A DNA stretch of 64,000 nt from Nitrospirota bacterium. Its GTDB lineage: Bacteria > Nitrospirota_A > Leptospirillia > Leptospirillales > Leptospirillaceae. How positions within the stretch are numbered: position 1 is the first letter of the stretch; every line of letters begins with the position of its first letter. Of the stretch, positions 31,618 through 44,891 are shown piece by piece. Both the position numbers and the translations under genes were made by a program. The notes below the pieces were generated by a model. The model had not been told where the DNA came from. It saw only the letters and a list, made by a program, of their open reading frames with translations, and did no database searches. The DNA lies in contig JAKCCY010000003.1 in the NCBI GenBank assembly GCA_021838765.1, positions 1-64,000 on the forward strand. The letters run 5' to 3'.

Positions 31618-32551
31618 TTCTGGCTCCTTTGGAATCAATGGTTGATGGGATCAGGACCGCTGAGTATTCCTGATTGTCCAAGAATGGTTGCAGGGTATCC
31701 TGGACTTTTTGGATTGTGGTCTGATTGGGTGAAAGTGCTACCATTGTTGATCCTGCACCTGATATGACGAGATTTGAAGCACCGGCTTCAACCGCAATAT
31801 CTCGAATGGCTGAAAACAAGGGGATGAGAGGGCCTCTATAGGGAGAGACGAGTGGGTCGTTGACCATCTCACAAAACAGATTCTGGTTATGGGAAGAAAC
31901 TGCAGTCAGAATGCCGGCCGTTCTCATAATGGCTTCAACTGAGTTTTTAAAAGGTACTTTTTCCGGAATGGCTTTTCTGGATTCTGAGGTTTTCAAAAGG
32001 GATCTCGGGACGATAAACAGAAGGTGAACACCATCAAGCGATCCAAAACGGAAAGACTTCTTCAGATTGGTAATGGAGACAGTGACTCCGCCATATAGGC
32101 AAGCCGAGACATTATCCAGGAAATATCCGCCACTCACCCTGCTTTCAGCATTGGCAGCCGCTTCCAGAACTTCCTGCTCCGAGAAAGGATTCCCGGCCAG
32201 AATGTTTCCCAAAAAGGCTCCGCCGACAGCTGATGCCGCACTGGAGCCAAGTCCTGATCCAGGAACTCCTTTTTCGATTGATATCACCAGATCCTTTCCT
32301 GTTAGCCCAGCCATGTCCAGAATAGTCCTGGCCGCGATAGTTGCCGTGTTCTGGTTTGGATCCATTGGCAATTCGCTCCATGCTCCGGAAATGGAAAGGA
32401 TCCTGTCGCCGGATCGTTTGTCTTCGAGATATCCTGTGATCTGGTCACCCATTCCTGTAACGGCCATCCCAAGGGTATCAAATCCTGGTCCGATATTGCC
32501 GACAGAGGCTGGTGCATAAACTGTGACAGGATTCATGTTGATGTTTCTCAA
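31592..32551 (-). CDS. thrB: Homoserine kinase
   Basis: 319 residues. GHMP kinase that phosphorylates homoserine in threonine synthesis. VYAPASVGNIGPGFDTLGMA at the N-terminus, the ATP loop GVPGSGLGSSAASAVGG (about 95), and SGAGSTMVAL near the C-terminus. TTG start overlapping the stop of the upstream 2Fe-2S gene (TTGA), preceded by GGGAGG; an ATG five codons later is possible. Other threonine genes are not in the window. Confidence 0.94.
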   Translation of the reverse strand: MRNINMNPVTVYAPASVGNIGPGFDTLGMAVTGMGDQITGYLEDKRSGDRILSISGAWSELPMDPNQNTATIAARTILDMAGLTGKDLVISIEKGVPGSGLGSSAASAVGGAFLGNILAGNPFSEQEVLEAAANAESRVSGGYFLDNVSACLYGGVTVSITNLKKSFRFGSLDGVHLLFIVPRSLLKTSESRKAIPEKVPFKNSVEAIMRTAGILTAVSSHNQNLFCEMVNDPLVSPYRGPLIPLFSAIRDIAVEAGASNLVISGAGSTMVALSPNQTTIQKVQDTLQPFLDNQEYSAVLIPSTIDSKGARIVNRTSSL

Positions 32552-32889
32552 AGAGATCTCCCTCCCAGTTCCGGAGGATTGTCAATTTGAAGATCCGAAA
32601 CGATATGTCCCTTTTGAAGGTGTTCTGAAACGATCCGTTTGACATCTTCCGAGGTTTGTATCCTGTAATAGACTCCATCTGGATAGATCGCCAATACAGG
32701 GCCTTCCTCACAGGTATCAAGACAACCGCTTTTATTGATCCTGATGGGTCCAGGGACAGGACTCATCAGGACGGCTTCCTTCAGCTCGTCGAGCAGGGGA
32801 GCGATTCCCCTGGCTGCGCAGGATCCTCTTGGATGGTTTGCTGGCCGTTCATTCGTGCAGGCAAAAAGATGATAGCGAAATCTTCCCAT
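32548..32889 (-). CDS. Thioredoxin-like [2Fe-2S] ferredoxin
   Basis: 113 residues from the ATG at 32889, which follows AAGGAG; the frame extends 17 codons further without a better site. Shethna/NuoE-like fold: YHLFACTNERP, GSCAARG, INKSGCLDTCEEGPVLAIYPDG, giving four cysteines (C-x(11 to 12)-C ... C-x3-C) for one 2Fe-2S cluster. Such proteins act as small electron carriers. Overlap with thrB suggests co-transcription but not a shared pathway. Confidence 0.88.
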   Translation of the reverse strand: MGRFRYHLFACTNERPANHPRGSCAARGIAPLLDELKEAVLMSPVPGPIRINKSGCLDTCEEGPVLAIYPDGVYYRIQTSEDVKRIVSEHLQKGHIVSDLQIDNPPELGGRSL

Positions 32890-32982
32890 TGCTCTTGACT
32901 CCTTATTATGGTTGTTGTTGGAACAAGGACGTTTGACCAATCCATGTGGGTTAAGGTCAAACAGTTGATTCCATGGTGAATA

Positions 32983-33702
32983 TCAGGACAGGTGGAAGAT
33001 TTTAGGAAGAATCGTTCCGACAAAAAGACCTGCCAATGCGGCTGATCCACCCAGAATGACCATTTCTCCTGCTCCCTTGATGACCGGTTCATTCGAATAG
33101 TGGGATTTTATAACACCGAGGGTTGCCAATACCACTATTGAGAGAGCGAGGGAAAGATCAAACGCAAAAGACAGGGAATGAACGAATGCATAGGGAAAGA
33201 GTGGGGGAATCCCTCCAATGAGAAAGGAGGCTCCCAGCCATGTGCCATCCTTTAATGGATGTGCCTTTTCCATATCACTCAATCCAAGCTCTTCCTTCAT
33301 CATGAAGGAGTGCCAAAGATGAGGATCCTTCGTGATCCTTTGCACAAACAGCGTTGCCTCTTCCTGAGAGAAGTGCATCTTTAACAGGATATCAAAGACC
33401 TCTTTCTTTTCCAGTTCAGGGGTATCCCTGATTTCATCCCATTCCCTGTTGGATTCTCTCAGGTAAAAATCGCGCTGGCTTCGAGAAGCCATATAGCCTC
33501 CCAGAAACATGGAAATGGCTCCTGCGACATTGGACATGACTCCTGAAAAAAAAATGGTATGCATTGGCAAGGCTGATCCGGTGAGGCCACCAATAAAACT
33601 GACAACCGTGACCACACCATCGTTGATTCCAAGAACCGAATCCTTGATTCGTCTTCCTTCGGGAGAATGCCAAGCTTCAAGGGGGGATGAGGAATTTTTC
33701 AT
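32983..33702 (-). CDS. VIT1/CCC1-family iron/manganese transporter
   Basis: 239 residues. Membrane protein with N-terminal helices beginning DSVLGINDGVVTVVSFIGGL, then a cytosolic helical metal-binding hairpin rich in Glu (FYLRESNREWDEI, LEKKEVFDILLKM, EEATLFVQRITKD, MMKEELGL) and three C-terminal helices ending GGSAALAGLFVG. The Glu-rich hairpin is the ferritin-like iron-binding module of plant VIT1. Likely exports or stores Fe(II)/Mn(II), useful in iron-rich acid. Divergent from the oxidase operon promoter at 33786. Confidence 0.92.
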   Translation of the reverse strand: MKNSSSPLEAWHSPEGRRIKDSVLGINDGVVTVVSFIGGLTGSALPMHTIFFSGVMSNVAGAISMFLGGYMASRSQRDFYLRESNREWDEIRDTPELEKKEVFDILLKMHFSQEEATLFVQRITKDPHLWHSFMMKEELGLSDMEKAHPLKDGTWLGASFLIGGIPPLFPYAFVHSLSFAFDLSLALSIVVLATLGVIKSHYSNEPVIKGAGEMVILGGSAALAGLFVGTILPKIFHLS

Positions 33703-33785
33703 AAATCAAGCATACCAAAAACGATGTATCCAAAACGAGTCGAGTCAAAAATTGGGAACATCCCGATTGAAAATCCCATATATTC

Positions 33786-33814
33786 TTGACAAGTATTTAT
33801 GCGGGGGGTATTAT
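33786..33814 (+). promoter_or_regulatory. Strong predicted sigma-70 promoter of first oxidase unit
   Basis: TTGACA (33786-33791), exactly 17 bases, TATTAT (33809-33814). This is the best promoter seen in the window. The spacer ends in a run of six G. The first gene starts about 140 bases downstream, leaving a long 5' untranslated region with an interrupted palindrome CCATGG-TTT-CCATGG. Confidence 0.75.
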
Positions 33815-33961
33815 CCACCCGATCTCCTCCTGATCTACCTTTTTTGAAGGGTTTTTTGTGTTCAGAGCGGGAAGGTCGTCAGCTATTATTTTTCGGAGTT
33901 TATCCGATAGTAGGATCGTTTACCGGTCCATGGTTTCCATGGAAAATCGGAGGGTATTAAA

Positions 33962-34195
33962 ATGGGAAACAGCATGAAGGGTTTTGTAGCTTATGCATTG
34001 GTTGGCGCATTTGTTGCCGTAGGCAGCGGATGTGTCGTTGGTTTCTGTTTGCAGGAATGGTTGGGTGCACACCGATTTCCGACCTGGCGTGGAGATTATG
34101 AGTGGGTCTACGATGTTATGGTCATCTCCGCAATAACCGGAATGGCCGTTTCCCTGTGGGCTCGGTCACTTCATCGCAAAGAAGAGAATTGGTGA
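33962..34195 (+). CDS. Small membrane protein, first gene of CcoO unit
   Basis: 77 residues, not recognised. Two membrane helices: about 7-29 (YALVGAFVAVGSGCVVGF) and about 49-66 (VYDVMVISAITGMAVSLW), joined by a loop with WRGDYEW. AATCGGAGGGT precedes the ATG. Position before ccoO suggests a subunit or assembly protein of the oxidase. Both a real gene and expression are likely from the promoter and ribosome binding site. Confidence 0.75.
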   Translation: MGNSMKGFVAYALVGAFVAVGSGCVVGFCLQEWLGAHRFPTWRGDYEWVYDVMVISAITGMAVSLWARSLHRKEENW

Positions 34196-34202
34196 TTGCA
34201 AG

Positions 34203-34236
34203 CTGAAAAGCCTAAAGATACTTTAGGTCTTTTCAG
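34203..34236 (+). promoter_or_regulatory. Intercistronic hairpin
   Basis: CTGAAAAG-CCTAAA, loop GATAC, TTTAGG-T-CTTTTCAG: a 14 bp stem with one bulge between the first two genes of the unit. No T tract follows, so an mRNA processing or stability element is more likely than a terminator. Confidence 0.5.
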
Positions 34237-34303
34237 ATCATCTCTTTGTGGTGTTATCGGTGTAAACTTTATGGTTTCTTGAATTTTTAATAAGGAGAAA
34301 ACG

Positions 34304-34504
34304 ATGGATCTTCTCTCTACGCTGGCACAATTGTCTGATTCGTCAAATTGTTGTGGTGCCACCCCAGGTGGAAATACCAGTGTGTCGGCTTTTGCGGCAT
34401 TGATGGGAACTGCCACTGCCCTTACCAGTTTGCTTCTTATGATCCAGTGCATGACCGGAATCGGCGCCAAGCCAAAATTTGATCCTACAAAAGGGAAAAA
34501 GTAG
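34304..34504 (+). CDS. Small membrane protein upstream of ccoO
   Basis: 66 residues, not recognised. Short N-terminus with a double cysteine (SSNCCGATPGG), one hydrophobic helix (about 29-50, FAALMGTATALTSLLLMI) and a basic tail KFDPTKGKK. AAGGAG lies eight bases before the ATG. It occupies the place where ccoN stands in normal cbb3 operons, but is far too small to be an oxidase core subunit. Confidence 0.7.
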   Translation: MDLLSTLAQLSDSSNCCGATPGGNTSVSAFAALMGTATALTSLLLMIQCMTGIGAKPKFDPTKGKK

Positions 34505-34605
34505 TTTCCTTTTAGATGTTTCGGGATTTTTCCCGGACTCTTGAACCAGTTCTTGGACAAGTCAGGTTGGGTGTCTGGACCTCAACCTAAAGTGAGGAGT
34601 GGTGA

Positions 34606-35136
34606 ATGGCTTATCGTGAGTATAAATTTGGTACCATGATGATCGGCACGCTTTTTGTAATCGTGCTCTCGATTGTTGTTTTGTTCCCATCCCTCCAGAT
34701 GGCAAAGATTCCTCCGACGGCCACAGCTGTCCAGAAGTCCAAGGATTATGGCTCTGAGAGCGGATGGACGCTTGAAGATCCCATGATGACCGGCGACAAT
34801 CGGCCAACAATGATCGGAAAAGGAAAAGTGGTTTTTATCCGCGAAGGATGCTGGTGGTGCCATACACTCCTTCCGGAGCAGACTCAGGACTGGCAGTATT
34901 TTGGAGCGCCTCCGACAGCCGCCGACTTTGTGGGAGAAAGCCCTACAGTGTTCGGATCTGATCGAAAGGCCCCTGATCTTCTGCATGTCGGAAGCCGGTT
35001 GCCTATCAAGGGATGGCACTTGGTTCACCATGCCAATCCAAGGGCTGTTCAGCCAAAGTCGATGATGCCTGCATTTAACTATCTCCGCAAAAAGGATCTT
35101 GACGCTCTGGCCGATTACATGGCAAGCTTGAAATAG
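34606..35136 (+). CDS. ccoO: CcoO-like monohaem cytochrome c, cbb3 oxidase subunit II
   Basis: 176 residues. One N-terminal membrane anchor (about 9-31) and a periplasmic monohaem domain. FIREGCWWCHTLLPEQTQ carries the CxxCH site, followed by GSDRKAPDLLHVGSR and a methionine-ligand region SMMPAFNYL, all in CcoO order. The family motif GCxxCHSQxIRP is changed to GCWWCHTLLPEQ. Slightly shorter than usual CcoO (about 200). In canonical operons it follows ccoN directly; no ccoN is present here. It would pass electrons from a donor cytochrome to an oxidase core. Confidence 0.88.
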   Translation: MAYREYKFGTMMIGTLFVIVLSIVVLFPSLQMAKIPPTATAVQKSKDYGSESGWTLEDPMMTGDNRPTMIGKGKVVFIREGCWWCHTLLPEQTQDWQYFGAPPTAADFVGESPTVFGSDRKAPDLLHVGSRLPIKGWHLVHHANPRAVQPKSMMPAFNYLRKKDLDALADYMASLK

Positions 35137-35192
35137 ACGTCTTCAATTGACGGAGATGTTTCACCGCAATTATACTTGTAAGGAGTTATGAG

Positions 35193-35525
35193 ATGGCTGA
35201 TATCGATGAAATGTTGAATGAAAGGTATGACGGTATTCTTGAAGGGACGAACAATATCCCTGCAGCGTTGATCCTTATTCTTACAATGACTGTTGTGACG
35301 GCTGAATTGCTGACATTCCCTCTTTTCGGAGCTCGTCCGCAATACCCTGGCCATCCTCATCATTGGCTTATTATGGGAGCACCTGTTCTCAAGGCTCACC
35401 TATCCAAGACTTTGGCTCGTCCATGGTGGGATCAGGGTTATATCATCAACTCGACCTATGTTTGCTTCTTTTATGTCTGGATGGGGCTTTTGTTGAAAAA
35501 AACAGAGGTTTCCAAAGATTTCTAA
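35193..35525 (+). CDS. CcoP N-terminus-like membrane protein without haem
   Basis: 110 residues. The N-terminus ERYDGILEGTNNIPAALIL resembles the YDGIxExxNPxPxWW membrane anchor of CcoP, followed by a helix to about residue 45 (TMTVVTAELLTFPLF), a His/Pro/Trp-rich loop (PGHPHHWLI, RPWWDQGY) and a second helix (about 85-102, STYVCFFYVWMGLLL). No CxxCH site is present, whereas CcoP has two haems. Likely a structural subunit of the oxidase complex. The CcoP resemblance is my reading of a short pattern and is not certain. Confidence 0.6.
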   Translation: MADIDEMLNERYDGILEGTNNIPAALILILTMTVVTAELLTFPLFGARPQYPGHPHHWLIMGAPVLKAHLSKTLARPWWDQGYIINSTYVCFFYVWMGLLLKKTEVSKDF

Positions 35526-35581
35526 TTTTAAGTATCTGATTGTAAGCGTTTTTTTGGAGAGAACTCTCCTGGGAGGGTCAT

Positions 35582-35686
35582 ATGTGGAATTTAAATAGTC
35601 CTTATGTATTTTGGGTCATCACAATGATGATGTTGGCTTGTTCTCTTATTTACTCTTTCTTTATTGATGAGAGACGGCCTGAGTAA
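35582..35686 (+). CDS. 34-residue single-helix membrane protein
   Basis: MWNLNSPYVFWVITMMMLA begins a single hydrophobic helix ending before FFIDERRPE. GGGAGGG precedes the ATG. Resembles CcoQ/CcoX-type tiny subunits in size and position (last gene after ccoO and the CcoP-like gene, just before the terminator), but no sequence motif proves this. Confidence 0.65.
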   Translation: MWNLNSPYVFWVITMMMLACSLIYSFFIDERRPE

Positions 35687-35701
35687 TCTACATTTTTGAA
35701 G

Positions 35702-35738
35702 AAGGCCGGATTGTATAAAATCCGGCCTTTCTTTTTTT
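35702..35738 (+). terminator. Rho-independent terminator of first oxidase unit
   Basis: AAGGCCGGATT/AATCCGGCCTT stem with a six-base loop followed by TC and seven T, 16 bases after the stop of the 34-residue ORF. Confidence 0.9.
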
Positions 35739-35750
35739 GCATATTGGACC

Positions 35751-35780
35751 AGGGCGGTTCGCTTGCGACCGCCCTTTTTG
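35751..35780 (+). terminator. Second tandem terminator
   Basis: AGGGCGGT and ACCGCCCT pair around a nine-base loop (TCGCTTGCG) and are followed by TTTTTG. It follows the first terminator by 12 bases and touches the -35 box of the next promoter. Confidence 0.8.
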
Positions 35781-35810
35781 TTGACCCGGGAAGATGATGG
35801 GCCGTAAAAT
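35781..35810 (+). promoter_or_regulatory. Predicted promoter of second oxidase unit
   Basis: TTGACC (35781-35786), 18-base spacer, TAAAAT (35805-35810). The next ATG (35831) is about 20 bases downstream with an AAGAGGG ribosome binding site. Confidence 0.6.
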
Positions 35811-35830
35811 AACAGGTAAGAGGGTCCTGT

Positions 35831-36037
35831 ATGAATATCAAACTATCTGTTTCAATTGTGATTTTTACCTTCCTGATCGCTGCTGTTTTTGTCTTTCTGA
35901 TTATGTCCCGTTATATCATTGGTCCTTTTGGAAAGCTGAAAAAAGGAGAGCAGGTTGTCGTCATTCTTAGCATTATCGGTGTGACGGTTGTGCTTTTGTT
36001 TGCAGTGGTCCAGCTCGTCTTGAAAATTCTGGTTTGA
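35831..36037 (+). CDS. Small two-helix membrane protein
   Basis: 68 residues, not recognised. Helices at about 5-27 (VSIVIFTFLIAAVFVFLIM) and 42-66 (VVVILSIIGVTVVLLFAVV) with a short basic loop GKLKKGEQ. First gene of the second oxidase unit, 14 bases before a cytochrome c gene. Likely an accessory subunit. Confidence 0.7.
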   Translation: MNIKLSVSIVIFTFLIAAVFVFLIMSRYIIGPFGKLKKGEQVVVILSIIGVTVVLLFAVVQLVLKILV

Positions 36038-36051
36038 TGGGGTCGTAACCA

Positions 36052-36483
36052 ATGAAAACCGGGGAAAAGGTTGTCTTTATGCTCACAGCTCTCATGATCG
36101 GGGTTGTGATGATTTTGTACGTCTTGGGACAGATGCATATTATTAATTTTTGGACGACTAATGATGTTTATGTCTTTAATAAAAAGACAGAGGCAGGATT
36201 TCATGTGTTTAAAAGGGATGGATGTAAAAACTGCCATGTCCTTTATGGAGACGGGGATTTTGCAGGTCCCGATCTGGACGGGGAAGGAACAAAAAGGACC
36301 AGACAATGGCTGGAATCCTACATGAAGGATCCCCATAAGGTTTTTTTCAACACAAGGCATGATGGAAAGTTTGCCACGGATTTTTCGGATATTCCTCCGG
36401 CAGACAAGGCGATGCTTCTGGATTTGCTAACATCAACCCAGGCTCTTCCGGGTTCGCCGAATTATCCTAAACCGCCAAAATAA
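36052..36483 (+). CDS. Membrane-anchored NorC-like monohaem cytochrome c
   Basis: 143 residues. One N-terminal helix (about 7-28) anchors a periplasmic cytochrome domain. GCKNCHVLYGDGDFAGPDL matches the NorC pattern CxxCHTxxGEGxYxAPDL, and the WLESYMKDPHKVFF segment also fits NorC. The distal NorC methionine region is not obvious; ADKAMLLDL occurs near the end. NorC is the electron-entry subunit of nitric-oxide reductase, and related cytochromes serve oxygen-reducing relatives. No norB is present in the window. Confidence 0.75.
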   Translation: MKTGEKVVFMLTALMIGVVMILYVLGQMHIINFWTTNDVYVFNKKTEAGFHVFKRDGCKNCHVLYGDGDFAGPDLDGEGTKRTRQWLESYMKDPHKVFFNTRHDGKFATDFSDIPPADKAMLLDLLTSTQALPGSPNYPKPPK

Positions 36484-36500
36484 GTCAGAAGGGGTATAAG

Positions 36501-36707
36501 ATGAAATTACCTGAGGGAATTGTTGCCTATTTGTGGACGGCAACGGGATTGGTCTCGCTCGTACTGGTTGTTATCGGTATTTATTGGGCTTATAAGAACA
36601 ACCAGTTCGATGAAAATATCAAATACCTTGTTTTTATGGAGGATGATGATGATCGCAAAAACCATATTGAGGCTATGAAGGAAAAGGAACTAGAAGACCG
36701 AAAGTAG
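36501..36707 (+). CDS. CcoS-like small membrane protein
   Basis: 68 residues. One helix (about 8-30, YLWTATGLVSLVLVVIGI) followed by YKNNQFDENIKYLVFMEDDDD. Cbb3 maturation protein CcoS has the same plan: one helix, then SGQFDDL and a short strand ending in an acidic FDDD cluster. The helix here is preceded by a longer N-terminus and followed by a charged tail. Likely needed for cofactor insertion or assembly; assignment rests on the pattern only. Confidence 0.6.
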   Translation: MKLPEGIVAYLWTATGLVSLVLVVIGIYWAYKNNQFDENIKYLVFMEDDDDRKNHIEAMKEKELEDRK

Positions 36708-36728
36708 GTCTGAGGGAGGTCTGTCCAG

Positions 36729-37199
36729 ATGAATCTTGAGAAAAATTATATTTTCCGAGTCGTACTGGCATTGGTGTTGGGTATACTCGGTTATTGGATC
36801 ATAGATTCAGTGTTTCACCTGACAGATGGTGCATTCCATCATCTGTTTGGAGGTGGAATTCTCTGGACATACCTTCTTGTTCCGGCTCTGGTCGCGTTTT
36901 ATGTGGGCTATATCGTTGGGAAGTGGGGAAAGTACTGGGGAGCTGTTCCGCCGATGCTCTATATCCTTTGGGCTTACATGAACGCCTCAAGATCAGGAAC
37001 CTTTCATACGGTTGGTCTTCCGACAGCTCCTTTCATGATGATTTTTTTCATCACTGTACCAGAGGTTTCATTTGTAGGTGGATGGGCCGGTGAGTTTTTT
37101 CGAAAAAAACAGGACAAGGCAAGAAAGATGCGCTTGAAACAAAGAATAAACACCCAGACATTAGAAAACGGTTCAAACGAAGGGAGTACTCAGCTATGA
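36729..37199 (+). CDS. Four-helix membrane protein, unknown
   Basis: 156 residues. Helices at about 8-24, 42-64, 72-86 and 96-116, then a basic cytoplasmic tail (RKKQDKARKMRLKQR). Not recognised. The stop overlaps the start of the next gene (ATGA), so it is translated with the short oxidase-like protein. Confidence 0.65.
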   Translation: MNLEKNYIFRVVLALVLGILGYWIIDSVFHLTDGAFHHLFGGGILWTYLLVPALVAFYVGYIVGKWGKYWGAVPPMLYILWAYMNASRSGTFHTVGLPTAPFMMIFFITVPEVSFVGGWAGEFFRKKQDKARKMRLKQRINTQTLENGSNEGSTQL

Positions 37200-37744
37200 A
37201 AATAGAAGAAAGCGATCGGTTGGGACTGAAGTTTATCCTTTTTGGTGTTTTCTGTCTTTTCATAGGGACTCTCCAGGGATTTCTGCAATCCACCCCGAGG
37301 TTGAGACATTGGGTTCATACCACAGGGCAGGCCGGACACCTTGTTGATCCATTGGCACATGCTCACATCAATCTGATTGGCGGGGTCGTATCGGTCATGA
37401 TGGCGGTTGTCTACTATCTCATCCCCCGCATGATGAAGCGGAATATCAAGAGTGCTTTTCTCGGGCAGGCCAATTTTTACTTTATGGTTTCAGGAGTTCT
37501 TTTGTTTTATGTCACTCTGTTGGTCTTTGGAATCCTGGAGGGCAACCGGATGATAGACGAAGGGATTGTTTACCCTTTGGCGAGAGCCCATTATGAGCCG
37601 ATCCACCGGATTGGATTTGTTTTTTCGGCTCTTCTCATGGGGTTGGCGCACTGGACCTTTGTGGCCAATATTTTCTGGACCTATTTTGCAAAAGAATCTG
37701 CATCCGTGATACCGGATGCTGTTCCTGTAAAAGAGAGGGCATGA
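37196..37744 (+). CDS. Short heme-copper oxidase subunit I-like membrane protein (copy 1)
   Basis: 182 residues with four helices: about 12-31, 59-81 (HAHINLIGGVVSVMMAVVY), 93-115 and 140-165. The HxHxNLxG motif at the start of helix 2 and later LARAHYEPIHRIG and LAHWTFVANIFW place histidines at helix ends as in CcoN/NorB-type oxidase subunits, but the protein is about one third of CcoN (about 470). Similar short proteins are often labelled cytochrome-c oxidase subunit I in databases. May bind haem b. A second copy lies at 38884. Confidence 0.65.
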   Translation: MKIEESDRLGLKFILFGVFCLFIGTLQGFLQSTPRLRHWVHTTGQAGHLVDPLAHAHINLIGGVVSVMMAVVYYLIPRMMKRNIKSAFLGQANFYFMVSGVLLFYVTLLVFGILEGNRMIDEGIVYPLARAHYEPIHRIGFVFSALLMGLAHWTFVANIFWTYFAKESASVIPDAVPVKERA

Positions 37745-37748
37745 AAAG

Positions 37749-38870
37749 ATGACGGGCAAAACAGATGATTCCATTGTGCAGCCAATCGACCCGTCGAAAG
37801 AATCCACTGATGAAAGAAAGAGCCATTTCCCATCAGTCACGAGCATGGATGATGATGATCTGACACTTCAGGAGCTGTCTCCGTGGAGGCTGCCGTGGAA
37901 AGCGATCTCCGTGACCGTGGTGGTTTTAATCCTGATTGCTGGAGCCATCCAGATTGTGAGTCTTGCTTCTAACCGTATCAAGAGGCTTTCCGAATCCAGC
38001 ATTCGGACACATGGTGCGGCGCCCGGAAATTTCAGGCCAATGGGAGGGGTCGTTCCGCATCTGTCAGCATCCCTTCCGATTTCAAAGGCTGCCAATGAAA
38101 TAGCTGCAACTCCCAGTTTGGCGGTTCCTGCGCCAAAAGGGGTCCATTTGCCGCCGGGATTTGTGTATATCCCTGCCGGTCCTTTTATTATGGGATCCGA
38201 CGACTCATTTTCAAATTTCGATGAAACTCCGGTCCATAAGGTCTATCTGCCCCCTTATGCCATCATGAAGACATTGGTGACGAATCGCCAATACAAGGAG
38301 TTTATCGATCAAGCCCATTATCTGGCCCCTCCAGGCTGGAAAAATCGAACCTATCCAAAGGGAAAAGGGGATCATCCCGTAACCTTTGTCAGCTACCTGA
38401 ATGCGGTTGATTTTGCCAGATGGCAGAAAAGCCGCCTCTGTACGGAAGAGGAATGGGAAAAAGCCGCTCGTGGAGTAGACGGAAGGCTTTGGCCATGGGG
38501 GAACACCTGGGATCCCCGACGGGCAAATGCGAATTACAGTGCAGGGGATACGACTTCCGTGACAAGATATGCCGACGGAGTCAGTCCCTACGGGATTTAC
38601 GACATGGCTGGAAATGTGTTCGAATGGACCTCATCCACCTATAAACCCTATCCTGGAAGCACTGCCAATAAAGCGAGATTCATGGCGTATAAAGTTGATG
38701 CCACTGGTACGCTCCATAGGGTCAGGGGTAAGGTCTACAAGGTTTTGCGTGGCGGTTCCTGGAAAAGTGATCAGTACAGTGCCAGAACGACCGCTAGAAA
38801 TCCAACTTGGCCGGATTACGCATCCGATTTCTTTGGGTTCCGGACTTGCCGGGATGTCATTCATGAATGA
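37749..38870 (+). CDS. Membrane-anchored formylglycine-generating-enzyme-fold protein
   Basis: 373 residues. One N-terminal helix (about 53-74, AISVTVVVLILIAGAIQIV), a linker, then an FGE-sulfatase (SUMF1/EgtB/PvdO) domain from about 135 to the end: FVYIPAGPFIMGSDD, FDETPVHKVYLP, LVTNRQYKEF, LCTEEEWEKAARG, YDMAGNVFEW and VLRGGSW near the end. The two catalytic cysteines of true formylglycine-generating enzymes, expected just after GGSW, are absent (KSDQYSAR follows). Its place between the two short oxidase-like genes points to a structural or assembly role at the periplasmic face. Confidence 0.82.
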   Translation: MTGKTDDSIVQPIDPSKESTDERKSHFPSVTSMDDDDLTLQELSPWRLPWKAISVTVVVLILIAGAIQIVSLASNRIKRLSESSIRTHGAAPGNFRPMGGVVPHLSASLPISKAANEIAATPSLAVPAPKGVHLPPGFVYIPAGPFIMGSDDSFSNFDETPVHKVYLPPYAIMKTLVTNRQYKEFIDQAHYLAPPGWKNRTYPKGKGDHPVTFVSYLNAVDFARWQKSRLCTEEEWEKAARGVDGRLWPWGNTWDPRRANANYSAGDTTSVTRYADGVSPYGIYDMAGNVFEWTSSTYKPYPGSTANKARFMAYKVDATGTLHRVRGKVYKVLRGGSWKSDQYSARTTARNPTWPDYASDFFGFRTCRDVIHE

Positions 38871-38883
38871 GAGAGGGGAGATT

Positions 38884-39459
38884 ATGGATCGGGAAGAAGG
38901 TATCAAGGACTACATCATGAAGTTCTATTATGCTTGTCTTTTGTATGCGATCATCGGTTTTTCCTGGGGTTCAATCATGGGGGGTGTTGAGCAGTTCCGG
39001 AATTTTGTACAGGCAGGTGCTGGTGGTCCATCAGACCTGATTGTGTTGGGTCATACCCATATCAATTTGTTGGGATGGGTCGAAATGGCGATCTTCGGAA
39101 CAATCTATTATGTTGTGCCGAGGCTCTATAATTCTCCGCTCTACAGCTATAAGTTAATGAAGATCCATTTCTGGACGCACAACATCGGCTTGGTTGGAAT
39201 GGTTCTTTGTTTCACGATTGCAGGATACAAGGGCGGAATGATCCTTTTGCACGGTAATGTCGCCGACATCAAGCCAGTCGAAGTCCCATACATGGAACTG
39301 GTCGGTGTCTTTGGGATGATGGTGCTTCTGGCAAACTTCATTTTTGCCTATAATATTTACAATTCTGTTCAGGTGGCTAAGGGAAAGAAAACGCTTCCTG
39401 CTGAGGAGAATGCTCTCCTTCCCGGGAGAGTCTCCGTCAGGGCTGGAGAATCGGCTTGA
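38884..39459 (+). CDS. Short heme-copper oxidase subunit I-like membrane protein (copy 2)
   Basis: 191 residues from the ATG at 38884 (GGGGAGATT before it); the frame runs upstream into the FGE gene but without a coding signal. Four helices, with LGHTHINLLGWVEMAIFG at helix 2, then VVPRLYNSPL, KIHFWTHNIGLVGMVL and MELVGVFGMMVLLANF. Helix 2 is closer to oxidase subunit I than in copy 1. Histidines at H-T-H and F-W-T-H could bind haem b. Together the copies give eight helices, still fewer than the twelve of a core subunit. Confidence 0.68.
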   Translation: MDREEGIKDYIMKFYYACLLYAIIGFSWGSIMGGVEQFRNFVQAGAGGPSDLIVLGHTHINLLGWVEMAIFGTIYYVVPRLYNSPLYSYKLMKIHFWTHNIGLVGMVLCFTIAGYKGGMILLHGNVADIKPVEVPYMELVGVFGMMVLLANFIFAYNIYNSVQVAKGKKTLPAEENALLPGRVSVRAGESA

Positions 39460-39710
39460 ATCGTAAGAATGGTTCTATTGCGGCGTCTCTGATTGTTCTG
39501 ACGTTTTGGCTCGATCTGTTTTCGCCCGATCAGGCCATGGCCTATATGCCAAGATATGTCCATGTCACACTGGGTGTTCCATGGATTGCTTATCTCATTT
39601 TTTTGCTGGGAGTGCTGGCGCCTGTTTTTTTATATCTTGGTGTTTCCTGGTATTGGCGCCATGAGATTGAATCCAGTGGAAAATCAGGAGATGATCAGGG
39701 AGAAGAGTAG
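39456..39710 (+). CDS. Small membrane protein
   Basis: 84 residues, TTG start overlapping the previous stop (TTGA). An N-terminal hydrophobic stretch ending SPDQAMAYMP could be a signal peptide (cleavage near AMA) or helix, followed by one helix (about 43-66, WIAYLIFLLGVLAPVFLYLG) and an acidic tail. Not recognised. Confidence 0.6.
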   Translation: MNRKNGSIAASLIVLTFWLDLFSPDQAMAYMPRYVHVTLGVPWIAYLIFLLGVLAPVFLYLGVSWYWRHEIESSGKSGDDQGEE

Positions 39711-39757
39711 ATTTCTGGAACAATGCCCCCGGATTCTCCTTTCCTGAAAGGTTGGCT

Positions 39758-41101
39758 ATGTCATCCTCCGTAAAAAATGCTTCGCTGATTCCCATGCCAA
39801 GCATCGATAAAAAACCGTCCAATACTCAATCGAAGAGATTCTGGCGTGTGACGACGCTGAGATACCTGGTTCAAGGATTGATCCTTACGACAATAGCTGT
39901 ATTGCCCTTTACTGGGTTATTTCGTATCGATCTGTCCACCGGCCGTTTTTTGTTGGCCGGATATCAGATCTGGTGGAGCGATTTTTTCCTGATCTTTCCA
40001 TTCTGGCTTCTTCTGATAGCAGGTGCTGCAACCATCTATTCCATGCTCGGAATGGTCTTTTGCGGCTGGGCCTGTATCCAGAATACTCTTTCAGAGTTTG
40101 TCGACTTCCTGGTGATTAAAGTCCTGAAATCCAAAAAGCAAAGCTTGGGTCTCGACTCTTTAACCATTGGCGGTGATCTCAGTAAAGGTTCCAAGGCAAC
40201 AGCAACCGGTTGGGTCCTTTTTGGAACCATCATTGTTTTGATGTCCGTCGCTCTCGGAGTGATTTTTGCGGGCTATTTTGTCAATCCAAAAATTCTATGG
40301 AGTGATATCAGGACGGGTTCCAATGCACATGGAGTGTTTTTTATCATTCCGGGTATAGGGGCCCTGTTTGTTTTGGATCTATTTTTGATCAGGCATTACT
40401 GGTGCAATTGGGTCTGCCCTTACCCCTTGTGGCAGCATATGTTCAAAAGTGAAGCAACCATGAAAGTTGCATTTGATGATGCCAGAAGGGAAGAGTGCAC
40501 AGGCTGTAATCTTTGTGTGAAGTCTTGCATCGTTGACATTGATCCCAGGGACACCAAGAATTATACCCGTTGTATCAATTGTGGGGAATGTGTTGTCGCT
40601 TGTGAGGATTATTCAGCCAAAAAAAATGTGCCCTCCCTTTTGACGTTTCATTTTGATGGTTTTTCAATTGGGAAAGATGGCAAGAAACATATCAATAAAG
40701 TTTCGCCTGCAGTGAATCGTTTTGCATTGACTGCGGGATTTACTATGATTCCGTTATCACTTTTTATTTACGGAATTTTTTCTTATGTACCCTTTCATAT
40801 TACCTTTAGCCAGAACCCAGGGCATTTGACCAGATATTCTTTGGCAATTTCGAATAAAAAGCCAGTTTCTCAACGGTTTCGGATTGAGGAGGATGGCCTT
40901 CCTGCCAATAGTATTCATATCGGAACTGACCAAATAACGGTTCCGGCAGGGAGTAAAAAGATTATTCCTGTATCAATTCTTCCGAAAGAGGGAAATCTCT
41001 CAGAGGGGCTCCACCCCTTTGTGATTCATGTTATTTCAGACAATCCCAAGAAACAGGAGCTTTCTCAGGAAGCGTCTGTTTATATTTCCCAAGGGTTGTG
41101 A
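39758..41101 (+). CDS. ccoG: CcoG/FixG/RdxA-like polyferredoxin, copper handling for oxidase
   Basis: 447 residues from the ATG at 39758. Membrane helices at about 36-55, 75-100, 150-175 and 190-210, then WCNWVCPYPLWQHMF, two 4Fe-4S sites (CTGCNLCVKSC with a fourth Cys in the partner site, and CINCGECVVAC), one more helix and an Ig-like periplasmic domain. CcoG reduces Cu(II) during cbb3 assembly. Usually in ccoGHIS; here ccoH and ccoI are absent and ccoS-like is upstream. Strong family match. Confidence 0.9.
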   Translation: MSSSVKNASLIPMPSIDKKPSNTQSKRFWRVTTLRYLVQGLILTTIAVLPFTGLFRIDLSTGRFLLAGYQIWWSDFFLIFPFWLLLIAGAATIYSMLGMVFCGWACIQNTLSEFVDFLVIKVLKSKKQSLGLDSLTIGGDLSKGSKATATGWVLFGTIIVLMSVALGVIFAGYFVNPKILWSDIRTGSNAHGVFFIIPGIGALFVLDLFLIRHYWCNWVCPYPLWQHMFKSEATMKVAFDDARREECTGCNLCVKSCIVDIDPRDTKNYTRCINCGECVVACEDYSAKKNVPSLLTFHFDGFSIGKDGKKHINKVSPAVNRFALTAGFTMIPLSLFIYGIFSYVPFHITFSQNPGHLTRYSLAISNKKPVSQRFRIEEDGLPANSIHIGTDQITVPAGSKKIIPVSILPKEGNLSEGLHPFVIHVISDNPKKQELSQEASVYISQGL

Positions 41102-41277
41102 GAACTTCTGTCAGAAGGTGTGGATCAATCATTATCCCCTAATTTAGAGAGAATTGTGAGATTCCGTAGCGGAAAAGGATTGATCCCTCTCTCGCCGGGG
41201 CTGAAATTTTCTGAAAGAAATCGTACGGAGGCTTTGTTTTCGTTGAATTTATTCAATAGTTATGGTAACGTTTGAGC

Positions 41278-41745
41278 ATGTCAGATAAGATTATAGAATT
41301 GGTGCCAGACAAAAGAGGAGCTTTATGGAGCGGTTTGTTCCATGGTACAGCTATTTTTATGTCTTCCGTTCTAAGTTTTGACTATTATCAAAAAAGCCAT
41401 ACATCTCCCCTGTTCTATTTGTTTTTCTTTTCATTGTGGCTCGCGCTCTTTTCAGGCTTTACTTCTGTCGGCTCTCATTGCCTTTTGCTGTTTCCTAAAT
41501 CCCTTAAATCAATCAAGATTGGTCACCGATCCGTGATTCTGACGTGGAAAAATGGGGATGCTGATGAGATTGTCAGAAAGCTTCAGTTCCAAGGTGGTCG
41601 GACTCTCTTGGGATTATGGGGCCAAACCATTGATAAGAGGCGAATTCAAGCTACGATCAGGAGAAACTCTGTAAGCAAGGATGATTTTGCGTATCTCCTT
41701 TCAGAGCTTGCCCGCATTCGTGACATGGATAAGCCAAAGCCTTAA
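41278..41745 (+). CDS. Membrane protein, unknown
   Basis: 155 residues from the ATG at 41278 (a TTG two codons earlier is possible). Two close helices at about 18-36 and 45-70 (FYLFFFSLWLALFSGF), then a soluble basic domain with KSIKIGHRSVILTWKNGD. Not recognised. It follows a 176-base gap after ccoG with no clear terminator. Confidence 0.6.
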   Translation: MSDKIIELVPDKRGALWSGLFHGTAIFMSSVLSFDYYQKSHTSPLFYLFFFSLWLALFSGFTSVGSHCLLLFPKSLKSIKIGHRSVILTWKNGDADEIVRKLQFQGGRTLLGLWGQTIDKRRIQATIRRNSVSKDDFAYLLSELARIRDMDKPKP

Positions 41746-41757
41746 AGGGAGCAACCC

Positions 41758-42039
41758 TTGGCCCCGCCTACTCTCTCTCTTCCTTTCCTAGCCAAACGTC
41801 ATCCTTTCCTGACTGCAATCTTTGCATTCTGGGGGTTTGGCTATACTTTCATGGTTCCCAATCTACTGGGTGGTCACTTCCTTTTTTCTTTTTTTAAGTT
41901 GGTTGGGAAAAGCCCGATGGATGCCTTTATGGGATTTACCCTGCTTTTTGGCATGGTTGGAATTTTTGCCTTTGTCGTCCCTTTTTCTATCTGGTATCTT
42001 GTGTGTCGTGCATTGGAAAGTGGTGACCCTGTTTCATGA
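41758..42039 (+). CDS. Small two-helix membrane protein
   Basis: 93 residues, TTG start after AAAGGGAGC. Helices at about 17-38 (TAIFAFWGFGYTFMVPNLL) and 58-83 (GFTLLFGMVGIFAFVVPFSI). Not recognised. Likely translated with its neighbours. Confidence 0.6.
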   Translation: MAPPTLSLPFLAKRHPFLTAIFAFWGFGYTFMVPNLLGGHFLFSFFKLVGKSPMDAFMGFTLLFGMVGIFAFVVPFSIWYLVCRALESGDPVS

Positions 42040-42074
42040 TGTTCATGGGGAAGTGTCTGGATAAGGAGTATTAG

Positions 42075-42689
42075 ATGCATGGCTTTTTGGGTACCAAGGC
42101 GGATTTTTGGTGGGATCTGACCGTAACGAGTGAGACAATTGTGTTCAGTTTTCTGGCTGTCGGAGGATATTTCGCCAAAAAGCACAAAGGCACTCGCCAT
42201 CATAATACAATGCTTTTATCTTCTGTACTGGTGGCGGCCTGGTTTCTCATGTATATCGCACAACAATACATCGTGGGCATTGTGGGGTTTGGTGGACCGG
42301 ACTTCGTCAAATTTCTGATTTATTATCCAGTAATCATTTTTCACTCTCTTGTTTCAACGGCGGCATTGGTTTTAACGGGAGTGGTTGTTTTCAACGGTTT
42401 TATTTCGACCGATTTCAAAGACGGAGAGAGAATATTGGTGAAAAACCCCAATGTGCATCGCCGTCTGGGTTGGGTCACCCTTATCTGTTTCATTTGCTCG
42501 ATTGTGACTGCCTATTCAGTTTATACCATGCTTTTTGTGATCTATAATCCAGCGAGAAGCCCTTCTTACGGGATTAAATCTTCAATCGGAGCACTCTCCG
42601 GTATTGGCTCTTTTCTGATCTTTTCACTTGTTCTTTTGTTTTGGTATGTCGCGAGAGAAAAAAGAAAGCGTATGGGCACTCCCTCATGA
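42075..42689 (+). CDS. DUF420-like multi-helix membrane protein
   Basis: 204 residues with five helices. WWDLTVTSETIVFSFLAVGG, KKHKGTRHHNTMLLSSVLV, YYPVIIFHSLVSTAALVLTG and VHRRLGWVTLICFI place histidines in helix starts as in the DUF420/CtaM-type proteins linked to cytochrome oxidase assembly. Overlaps the Nudix gene start by four bases (ATGA) and is the last oxidase-linked gene of this region. Function in the family is not established. Confidence 0.7.
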   Translation: MHGFLGTKADFWWDLTVTSETIVFSFLAVGGYFAKKHKGTRHHNTMLLSSVLVAAWFLMYIAQQYIVGIVGFGGPDFVKFLIYYPVIIFHSLVSTAALVLTGVVVFNGFISTDFKDGERILVKNPNVHRRLGWVTLICFICSIVTAYSVYTMLFVIYNPARSPSYGIKSSIGALSGIGSFLIFSLVLLFWYVAREKRKRMGTPS

Positions 42690-43234
42690 CCGGGCCGGAA
42701 CAGGATCTGTCGAAGGAGAGAGACCGGTCCGTTGTGTATTCAGGGAACAGAATATCCGTTTGTTTGTCCAAGGTCGGTTCTGTTCAGTCCGGTTGGATTC
42801 ATGAGTCAGTCTGTTTTGGTGAAGGTGTTGCCATTTTGCCGATTATCGATGGCAAGGTGTTTTTTGTTCGACAGTTTCGCCCATCGGTATCGGAGATTGT
42901 TCTGGAGTTGCCGGCGGGAAAACTGGAGAAGGGCGAGGATCCAAGGGAAGGGGCAATTCGGGAGTTAAGGGAAGAGACAGGAATTTATGGAGGGGAGTTG
43001 TCGCTTATGGGTACAATCATGACAACGCCCGGTTTTTGTGATGAACGAATTCATCTTTTCCTTTCAACCGGAGGGCTCCAAGGGGAGTCTTCTCCGGATG
43101 AGGATGAGGATCTGGATGTTGTGTCTCTCCCTGTTTCATCGATTCCGAAATCTATTGTCGATGGGGGAATTCGTGATGGAAAAACTCTCTCCGCATTTGC
43201 TTTGTACTGGTCGCTCAATCGAATCGATCGGTGA
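42686..43234 (+). CDS. Nudix hydrolase, ADP-ribose pyrophosphatase-like
   Basis: 182 residues from ATG 42686, overlapping the upstream stop. The Nudix box is complete: GKLEKGEDPREGAIRELREE followed by TGI. An upstream FVRQFRPSVSEIVLELPAG matches ADP-ribose/ADP-sugar hydrolases of the NudF group. Hydrolyses a nucleoside diphosphate linked to another moiety, with Mg2+. GTGA overlap with the next gene. Confidence 0.9.
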   Translation: MTGPEQDLSKERDRSVVYSGNRISVCLSKVGSVQSGWIHESVCFGEGVAILPIIDGKVFFVRQFRPSVSEIVLELPAGKLEKGEDPREGAIRELREETGIYGGELSLMGTIMTTPGFCDERIHLFLSTGGLQGESSPDEDEDLDVVSLPVSSIPKSIVDGGIRDGKTLSAFALYWSLNRIDR

Positions 43235-43488
43235 GCCATTCATTGGTCGACCGTAAATATCTTCTTGCAGGAGGTATGATTCGTCTTGACTCAGAGCGCT
43301 GCCGGGGGTGTCTTGAGTGTGAAGAAATATGCCCTACCGGTGTTCTGGTTATGCCTATATCAGGAGATCAGGAAGGGTGTGCTCTGTCCGTAATGGGAAC
43401 TTGTATTGTTTGCAGATACTGTTTGACTTCTTGTCCGGACAAGGCGTTGTCTCTGATTCCAAAGGCAGATGAGGAGTCCTATCCATGA
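43231..43488 (+). CDS. Two-cluster 4Fe-4S ferredoxin-like protein
   Basis: 85 residues with a GTG start overlapping the Nudix stop; an internal ATG at 43276 is a weaker alternative. Two cysteine sets: [14 protein letters not shown] and [14 protein letters not shown], consistent with two 4Fe-4S clusters. Small electron carrier. Overlaps the sigma-54 activator start by four bases. Confidence 0.88.
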
Positions 43489-44891
43489 GTCCATTTCGTG
43501 GCCGATCGTTGGTTCCAACTTTTCCAGAAAACTCCGGAACACCAGAAGACAGGGACAAAAATGCATCTTTGATTGATCCGGAGATCATCCTGGAATCTCT
43601 CGAGGAAGGTGTACTTGCCATTGGCCTTGATCGAAAAATCCTTTATATGAATAAAGCTGCAAGAGAAATGCTGTCCGTGACACCAGGACAGGAAAAAACG
43701 ATCGATTGCCAAAAAGCGCTCAAGTCATCTTCCTGTCAGACCAGATGTTTATTGGAAAAAACGATTACGACCGGTGAGACGATCAGAAATCATGAAATCA
43801 CGATCTTTGATCGCTCTCATCGAATCCGTACTCTCCGAGTGAACACGGCCCTTTTAAAAAGACCTGATGGAGAGTTGATCGGAGGAGTGGAGATTTTCCA
43901 TGATGTGACGCATATTCTTGCCTTGAAAGAGGAAATCAAGGGCCGCTATTCTTTTGGTCGAATCATCGGTCGGTCTCAACGCATGCAGGAGTTGTATGAC
44001 ATTCTTCCGATTATATCGAATGGAAAATCGACCATTTTGATCGAGGGAGAAAGCGGAACAGGCAAGGAACTCGTTGCAAATGCGATCCATGAGTCGAGCT
44101 CCAGAAAAGAAGGACCATTTGTCAAACTGAATTGCGCAGCTCTTTCCGAAGGCGTTCTTGAATCGGAGCTCTTTGGACATGTCAAGGGCGCTTTTACAGG
44201 AGCTGTCCAAAGTCGCCCTGGACGTTTTGAAATCGCTTCCGGTGGAACCTTGTTTCTTGATGAGATAGGGGAAATTTCGCCATCCATGCAAGTCAAGCTT
44301 CTGAGAGTTCTCCAGGAAGAAGAGTTCGAACGGGTTGGAGGAACCCATACGATCAAGGTCGACGTCAGGGTTATTGCCGCAACCAATCGGGATTTGAAGC
44401 AAGCCATGGAAAAAGGGGAGTTTCGAAAAGACCTTTATTACCGGCTTAGGGTGATTCCCGTGACACTGGTTCCGCTTAGGGATCGCAAAGAAGATATCCC
44501 GCTTCTGATCAATTCTTTTATAGAAAAATTTTCCCTGACGACCGGTAAGGAAATATCTGGAATCTCTCCTGAGGCTATGGGAGTACTTTTGAATTATTCC
44601 TGGCCAGGAAATATCAGGGAGTTACAGAATGCGATCGAGCATGCTGTTCTTCTTTCTCCCGGGGGCATCATTGATCTGAAACACCTACCGGCAGACATTA
44701 CCAATAACCCTGAAGAAAACCGGGCTCCGGAAAATATTGTGGAGACTTCCCAGCCACTCCGAAAAGTGAAGGATGATATGATTCGCAAAACATTGGAAAT
44801 GACTGGAGGAAATATATCAGAAGCAGCCAGGAAGCTTGAGATCGGCCGTTCAACCTTGTGGCGCCGGTTAAGGGAAATGGATCACGGATGA
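43485..44891 (+). CDS. PAS-domain sigma-54-dependent transcriptional activator
   Basis: 468 residues. PAS sensor (about 30-145), central AAA+ domain with EGESGTGKE Walker A (about 190), [15 protein letters not shown] (sigma-54 contact loop), [11 protein letters not shown]alker B and RFEIASGG, and a C-terminal Fis-type helix-turn-helix ([20 protein letters not shown]). No receiver domain, so it senses directly through PAS. The PAS C-terminus has a cysteine cluster ([15 protein letters not shown]), seen in related regulators. Overlaps the ferredoxin and trpE. Targets unknown; no sigma-54 promoter was recognised nearby. Confidence 0.92.

Follow-up and report, generated by a model that had tools for sequence, protein, structure and literature searches.

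The gene cluster at positions 33962-42689 of a 64,000-nucleotide stretch of DNA from a Nitrospirota bacterium of the Leptospirillum family (the whole stretch is called the window below; G000:C1:614368-678367 in a genome that forms one contig of 2,559,538 bases and is 99.97% complete) very probably encodes a cbb3-type (C-type) heme-copper cytochrome c oxidase whose catalytic subunit, CcoN, is supplied in trans. The cluster comprises 16 genes, all on the + strand, including genes for two short homologs of oxidase subunit I, here named COXa and COXb. Taken as a whole, we consider the likely explanation to be a cbb3 cluster from which ccoN has been relocated and in which COXa and COXb form part of an oxidase-associated module.

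The original prediction, made from the sequence of this region, listed a CcoO, a CcoG, a CcoS-like protein and several small membrane proteins, and the open reading frames (ORFs) are as it described when examined with Pfam and NCBIfam, the CcoG-like and CcoS-like proteins both falling under the NCBIfam cut-offs. It also remarked on the lack of a full-length CcoN or NorB, and only two PF00115 (COX1) matches, both short, are present in the window. Of the two ways out that it offered, a core subunit encoded elsewhere or a core divided among short proteins, the former is supported by a search of the whole genome with PF00115, which gave three matches: besides the short pair of the window, a full-length one at 753713-754954. 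The corresponding ORF (G000:C1:753632-755056; 474 aa counted from the first start codon) lies 75 kb past the window end and ~105 kb from the window ccoO, and neither ccoO nor ccoP adjoins it. Its motifs GHIRPAHV, SGHN, YSTPGAHH and VAHAH retain the His of helix II, the His of helix VI, the Tyr and His-His of helix VII and the H-x-H of helix X, which in such enzymes are the heme and CuB ligands and the catalytic Tyr. The genome therefore holds, in trans, the complete ligand set expected of a cbb3-type CcoN, and the membrane-anchored monoheme cytochrome expected of CcoO is found in the window. The diheme CcoP that is usual, though not universal, among cbb3 oxidases was not found; p4, a heme-less protein, is the sole FixP_N match in the genome. 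Likewise, no NorB of ~12 transmembrane helices (TM) with a NorC was found, the sole full-length PF00115 protein of the genome being CcoN-like. The genome also encodes a cytochrome bd subunit I. The features of the cluster, in window positions, are as follows.

33962..34195, + strand: p1, 77 aa, one predicted TM
34304..34504, + strand: p2, 66 aa, between p1 and ccoO; among the loci compared, in the Leptospirillum family only
34606..35136, + strand: CcoO (FixO), 176 aa, PF02433 at 3e-20; membrane-anchored monoheme cytochrome c with one CxxCH (residue 82)
35193..35525, + strand: p4, like the N-terminus of CcoP, 110 aa; FixP_N at 0.00053 (below cut-off), no CxxCH
35701-35730 and 35751-35775, + strand: two terminator-like hairpins from a consensus scan, separating the two units
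35831..36037, + strand: p5, 68 aa, two TM; kept in the gamma- and zetaproteobacterial clusters
36052..36483, + strand: cytcM, 143 aa, membrane-anchored monoheme cytochrome c, FixO-like (PF02433 at 3.9e-7), with C58xxC61H62 conserved
36501..36707, + strand: S68, CcoS-like small protein; FixS at 0.0039 (below cut-off), QFD-E/D-x-IKY conserved
36729..37199, + strand: p8, 156-aa membrane protein
37196..37744, + strand: COXa, four TM, PF00115 (COX1) at 3.7e-14; resembles the C-terminal third of CcoN
37749..38870, + strand: protein with a formylglycine-generating enzyme (FGE)/SUMF1 domain, PF03781 at 3.3e-51; one N-terminal TM
38884..39459, + strand: COXb, 191 aa, four TM, of the one-third-CcoN type; PF00115 at 1e-14, 9g6b_A at 3.1e-16
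39456..39710, + strand: p84, one TM; conserved in the gamma- and zetaproteobacterial clusters
39752..41101, + strand: CcoG-like polyferredoxin (oxidase accessory protein); FixG_C above cut-off, TIGR02745 below
41272..41745, + strand: p157; its homolog adjoins COXb and a thioredoxin-like gene in the gamma- and zetaproteobacterial clusters; in 4 of 14 further loci of the family
41758..42039, + strand: p93, 93-aa small membrane protein; in 4 of 14 further loci of the family
42075..42689, + strand: DUF420 membrane protein, PF04238 at 7.8e-26; adjoins the cluster in 4 of 14 further loci of the family

Gene order was compared across 97 loci, namely 17 Nitrospirota loci and 80 kept from 218 confirmed COXb loci that were found by scanning named species genomes. 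Fourteen of these 80 are Leptospirillum-family records largely repeating the 17; the remaining 66, titled as Gamma- or Zetaproteobacteria or families therein (two only as Proteobacteria), are referred to as the Gamma/Zeta set, and another Nitrospirota family, distinct from that of the window, as f2. Fourteen more loci of the window's family, some of them cut by contig ends, carry the cluster, which is therefore not a chance assembly of genes; COXa, the FGE-like gene, COXb and CcoG occur together in all 17 Nitrospirota loci read. At E<1e-50, COXb was found in 20 of 198 Nitrospirota genomes, comprising 16 of the 21 genomes of the window's family and four of f2. A full-length CcoN-type protein is encoded in 17 of the 19 Nitrospirota genomes that have both short matches, with a broken one in one more genome and none in one draft (G002). 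All 10 Gamma/Zeta genomes tested have both COXa and COXb, and nine of them a full-length CcoN-type protein, the exception being a 'Ca. Tenderia' draft (G045) with no full-length COX1 at all, where the COXb contig ends 984 bases after COXb.

The common order in the Gamma/Zeta set is (c4) cytcL COXb Trx p157 p1 CcoN CcoO p4 p5 S68 cytcM p8 FGE p84 u133, where Trx is the thioredoxin-like gene; locus L068 departs from it. CcoN is present in 49 of the 66 loci; in all 49 the gene immediately preceding ccoN is p1, in 43 the gene immediately following it is ccoO, and COXb, CcoN, CcoO, p4, cytcM, p8 and FGE are found all together in 31 of 66. Thirteen of the 17 loci lacking CcoN end within 2.2 kb beyond COXb; the other four (L084, L085, L122 and L133) extend 6.6-10 kb beyond COXb without it. 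Two Mariprofundus strains, M. ferrooxydans PV-1 and M. erugo, have CcoG and COXa further along. In f2, ccoN, ccoO and p4 adjoin as one locus (2/2 regions read), and S68-cytcM-p8-COXa-FGE-COXb-Trx-CcoG forms another (three loci). The expectation that ccoN precedes ccoO thus holds in 43 of the 49 Gamma/Zeta loci with ccoN and in both f2 regions, but neither in the window nor anywhere else in its own genome; gene order does not, in any case, define the enzyme. Nor was ccoN found in the available stretch of any of the 14 further loci of the window's family, some being cut at contig ends. Since only the small p2 stands between p1 and CcoO in the window, the simplest reading is that ccoN has left the p1-ccoO slot, which was presumably its ancestral position. 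The idea that p2 is a remnant of ccoN was set aside: no family matched this 66-residue protein, and inspection by eye revealed no CcoN motif in it.

The relationships of the orphan CcoN agree with this picture. Its identity to CcoN from the Gamma/Zeta clusters (15 rows) is 52-55%, compared with ~31% to the other CcoN of four Zetaproteobacteria; such a second, different CcoN is encoded elsewhere in four of the five zetaproteobacterial genomes examined. In a maximum likelihood tree of 38 rows (34 different), for which the program flagged long outgroup branches, the CcoN of the Leptospirillum family, f2 and the Gamma/Zeta clusters fall on one side of a branch (support 84/99), and the other CcoN of the four Zetaproteobacteria are set apart (100/99). 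PMC7029218 and PMC8788666 distinguish two cbb3 forms in Zetaproteobacteria and Sideroxydans, 'proximal' and 'distal', and we suggest that the cluster of the window corresponds to the distal form. As described in PMC7029218, PMC8788666 and PMC10734462, which cite Ducluzeau et al. (2008) for the distal subtree, the distal-type clusters of iron oxidizers contain a full-length CcoN along with CcoO, both of which are also encoded here; what distinguishes the Leptospirillum family is that ccoN is gone from the cluster. A cyc1-type cytochrome gene is associated with a cbb3 cluster in Sideroxydans, according to PMC8788666, much as a diheme c4-like gene accompanies many of the Gamma/Zeta loci.

Compared with canonical cbb3 systems (ccoNOQP and ccoGHIS), the oxidase shares the CcoN ligands, the helix VII Tyr, CcoO, and CcoG-like and CcoS-like proteins, but differs in its heme-less CcoP-like protein, in the lack of a CcoH as judged by PF05751, in an extra cytochrome, in the two one-third-CcoN proteins and in the unlinked ccoN. 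A ccoN outside an operon is likewise described for Pseudomonas aeruginosa (PMC10790758), where the orphan CcoN is one of several isoforms; here it is the sole full-length heme-copper subunit I of the genome.

Within the window, the cluster falls into a first unit of p1, p2, CcoO and p4 and a second of p5, cytcM, S68, p8, COXa, the FGE-like gene, COXb, p84 and the CcoG-like gene, and p157, p93 and the DUF420 gene follow after a 170-base gap. The two units recognized earlier are consistent with the 305-base gap between p4 and p5 (35526-35830), which contains the hairpins and a promoter-like site at 35781; all promoter and terminator calls are from consensus scans. NorC-like proteins had been listed earlier; the cytochromes of the cluster match FixO instead, the one at 36052-36483 included, and no NorC model was hit. 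TIGR02745 spans residues 35-445 of the CcoG-like protein at 2.5e-35 and yet remains under the model cut-off. For COXb, a start at 38569, inside the FGE-like (sulfatase-factor) gene, was replaced, the ATG at 38884 being most likely (GAGAGGGGAG upstream); the longer frame 38569-39459 matched COX1 at 1.3e-14. No RNA family reached its gathering score in window positions 30000-46000.

A search of the genome for the FixO family gave two matches, the window ccoO and a second at ~1,041 kb, the weaker cytcM being absent from that list. The second gene (G000:C1:1041060-1041590; L036:10061-10591) encodes a 176-aa protein identical to that of 34606-35136. The two genes nevertheless differ at 65 of 531 bases, 60 of these in third and five in first codon positions, and the flanks have no similarity. 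The identity of the proteins would be accounted for if CcoO is strongly constrained or if one gene was acquired from a close relative. Around the orphan ccoN (L004:9633-12144), we observed a small TatA-like ORF downstream and, nearby on the opposite strand, a globin-like gene, both named by eye.

COXa and COXb are homologous to only one part of subunit I. Their Pfam COX1 matches are both confined to about profile positions 308-412 of 436, and profiles built on them match three sub-regions in all 10 CcoN shown, the last of these (helices IX-XII) best. In alignments of 20 sequences each, H48, H55, H57 and H137 are invariant in COXa and H57, H59, H95 and H99 in COXb, so that an H-x-H is kept in 40 of 40 sequences. 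These alignments contain no counterpart of the helix VII CuB His-His or of the catalytic Tyr, and with four TM each the two proteins fall short of a complete subunit I, which has 12 TM, the CuB His-His and a low-spin His on helix II. COXa and COXb are therefore not the catalytic core. It is accordingly very improbable that a reduced or divided core is made from them without a full CcoN, the new oxidase arrangement that had been proposed as the second way out: they are true subunit I homologs with the H-x-H of helix X, and their cluster does lack ccoN, but they match mainly the helix IX-XII third, a complete CcoN is encoded in the genome, and most homologous clusters also contain CcoN.

The partial match to subunit I might also be read as the trace of an old ccoN decaying into fragments. 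We regard this as extremely unlikely, as dozens of residues are invariant across Nitrospirota, Zeta- and Gammaproteobacteria, and as COXa and COXb each form one clade. This was seen in a tree of CcoN thirds (17 CcoN plus 10 rows each of COXa and COXb, out of 20 for either protein; the program gave a long-branch warning), in which the helix IX-XII thirds group without either protein, at a modest 94/68. The tree has five separate groups, the branching order of which it does not fix: groupings of COXa+COXb (approximately unbiased test, p = 0.213) and COXb+R3 (p = 0.32) were not rejected, and COXa+R3 and COXa+COXb+R3 appeared at 86/80 and 71/57. All that the tree suggests is that COXa and COXb did not arise recently by truncation of the CcoN included in it. 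For COXa, the predicted fold agrees with that of the last third of CcoN and of qNOR subunits. The first rows of a Foldseek search with COXb were CcoN, none at E <= 0.001; this comparison is not used as evidence, because unrelated helix bundles outrank CcoN in a second structure alignment, and the homology of COXb to CcoN is based on sequence. Seventeen of 20 COXb are weakly similar (E<=0.01) to the uncharacterized DUF2871 (PF11070, a 134-position profile), but the window COXb stays below that family's cut-off (19.6 vs 27.4 bits) and scores far higher with PF00115.

A COXa-FGE-COXb fusion, suggested by open frames of 776-894 aa in some relatives, was considered and rejected. Both COX1 matches lay in equal-length frames in six genomes, five of which (G006, G007, G010, G013 and G019) show separate ORFs and stops; the COXb places there are frames of 196-238 aa, and the longer figure probably counts read-through of stops. 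Further short COX1-like ORFs of ~135-155 aa, covering the helix X part only, occur in other Nitrospirota (G025, G026, G031, G034, G035, G036, G039, G040 and others); they do not reach the level at which COXb is matched within the window's family.

The FGE-like protein is probably not catalytic. Catalytic formylglycine-generating enzymes have an active-site cysteine pair after RGGS(F/W). The window protein reads RGGSWKSD where the cysteine-bearing motif is expected, and no cysteine occurs at the expected catalytic positions in it, in four of four sequences of the family or in nine of nine Gamma/Zeta sequences; three f2 sequences read RGGCWKC, with two cysteines in that stretch. The domain is shared with the relatives of EgtB, PvdO and GldK, but none of the NCBIfam models listed is matched by the window protein above its cut-off.

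We propose that the orphan-gene CcoN would join CcoO and the heme-less CcoP-like p4, and that electrons from Fe(II) would enter, via periplasmic cytochrome c, at the CcoO heme and pass through heme b to the b3/CuB site. The second unit (p5, cytcM, the CcoS-like protein, p8, COXa, the FGE-like protein, COXb, p84 and CcoG) would be a membrane module of or for the oxidase, in which COXa and COXb would probably bind low-spin heme b through the H-x-H, beside cytcM; the FGE-like domain would probably be a periplasmic scaffold, and CcoG and the DUF420 protein may act in assembly. That COXa and COXb are subunits carrying heme, and not factors of assembly or members of another complex, we judge about as likely as not. 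A bolder version, to which we assign a low probability, is that these single-unit relatives of a threefold-repeated fold are paired with cytcM as a small heme-b conduit at or beside the oxidase, with high-potential electrons moving toward O2 or uphill to quinone; they might then represent a heme-copper-type protein that functions in two pieces and a branch, separate from subunit I, of the four-helix unit that makes up subunit I.

It is possible, though unlikely, that COXa and COXb are instead assembly factors, inserting heme b or copper or stabilizing CcoN before it is complete, and working alongside CcoG, DUF420, the CcoS-like protein and, in the Gamma/Zeta clusters, the thioredoxin-like protein. 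Adjoining genes are indeed of assembly type (CcoG and CcoS-like; thioredoxin-like in Gamma/Zeta), and no CcoH was found in the genome. However, an H-x-H in all aligned sequences goes beyond the need of a mere scaffold, and the conserved monoheme cytochromes close beside COXa and COXb suggest electron transfer.

Several observations weigh against the reading of a relocated ccoN with an oxidase-associated module. The pairing of the orphan CcoN with the window CcoO is one that we infer from sequence, and the cofactor in COXa and COXb is putative. The bootstrap of 84 for the CcoN clade falls under the program's star level, the predicted fold of COXb is only moderately confident (pLDDT 78) and is outranked as noted, and the search for CcoH (PF05751) gave no match in the genome. 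In the drafts G045 and G002, COXa and COXb are present but a full-length COX1 match is missing, and f2 has its COXa/COXb unit at a different locus from ccoN-ccoO-p4; the oxidase core and COXa/COXb could therefore be separate complexes. Under such an alternative, COXa, COXb, cytcM, p8 and the FGE-like protein would connect periplasmic cytochromes with the quinone pool (e.g., uphill, for NADH) and be merely co-regulated with the oxidase. We think this unlikely. The unit includes a membrane-anchored monoheme cytochrome, both short proteins have further invariant histidines besides the H-x-H, and a terminator-like stretch precedes the unit in the window, all of which would suit a separate complex; on the other hand, the Gamma/Zeta loci have these genes on both sides of ccoN-ccoO-p4, no quinone site was identified, and the role is already filled by bc1 or alternative complex III, which PMC7029218 reports from Zetaproteobacteria and PMC5371394 from 'Ca. 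Tenderia'.

The oxidase form occurs in iron- and electrode-oxidizing bacteria, among others (e.g., Mariprofundus and a biocathode bacterium). Two further points against our explanation concern this link. It comes from named organisms among the 80 of 218 loci, many of which are Gammaproteobacteria whose lifestyle is not known, and in Sideroxydans ES-1 the distal ccoN/ccoO are higher on thiosulfate and the proximal on Fe(II)-citrate, according to PMC8788666. For 'Ca. Tenderia electrophaga', PMC5371394 reports a cyc1 region that is syntenic with two M. ferrooxydans contigs and contains a polyferredoxin and three hypothetical genes, and a non-canonical 'complex IV-2' among the most highly expressed genes. 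The PV-1 cluster likewise lies on two contigs, and the available text does not equate complex IV-2 with this cluster. In L. ferriphilum, ccoN was 4.9-fold up in NaCl-adapted cells (PMC9053815).

Some neighbouring genes deserve mention. A VIT1-family (iron/manganese transporter) gene at window 32983-33702 is divergent from the cluster and adjoins it in nine of the 14 further loci of the family, and the protein encoded at 29093-30544, just upstream of the cluster region, resembles a Pup ligase (PafA) in a sequence motif. One member of the DUF420 family is an oxidase assembly factor in Gram-positives. In four Gamma/Zeta loci, a protein of 869-881 aa is encoded between u133 and CcoG (L154:8085-10697, L155:4982-7591, L156:5409-8021 and L157:11216-13861).

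Overall, the relocation of ccoN explains an apparently headless oxidase cluster. The genes for the sole heme-copper oxidase of this genome lie at two or more sites far apart, a point of importance for expression or proteome work that uses one 'cbb3 gene'. What appears new is that the oxidase is constantly accompanied by an FGE-like protein and by two subunit I homologs of one-third size, in a role that we infer; we found no description of the short subunit I-like or FGE-like proteins of these clusters in the open-access literature, most subscription papers being outside the search. COXa, COXb and the probably non-catalytic FGE-like protein travel with the oxidase through Nitrospirota, Zeta- and Gammaproteobacteria, including several iron and electrode oxidizers. 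If COXa and COXb carry heme, they would add new components to the route that electrons take in iron oxidizers. Irrespective of their role, both are naturally occurring relatives, of a single unit each, of the threefold-symmetric oxidase fold, the origin of which becomes testable.

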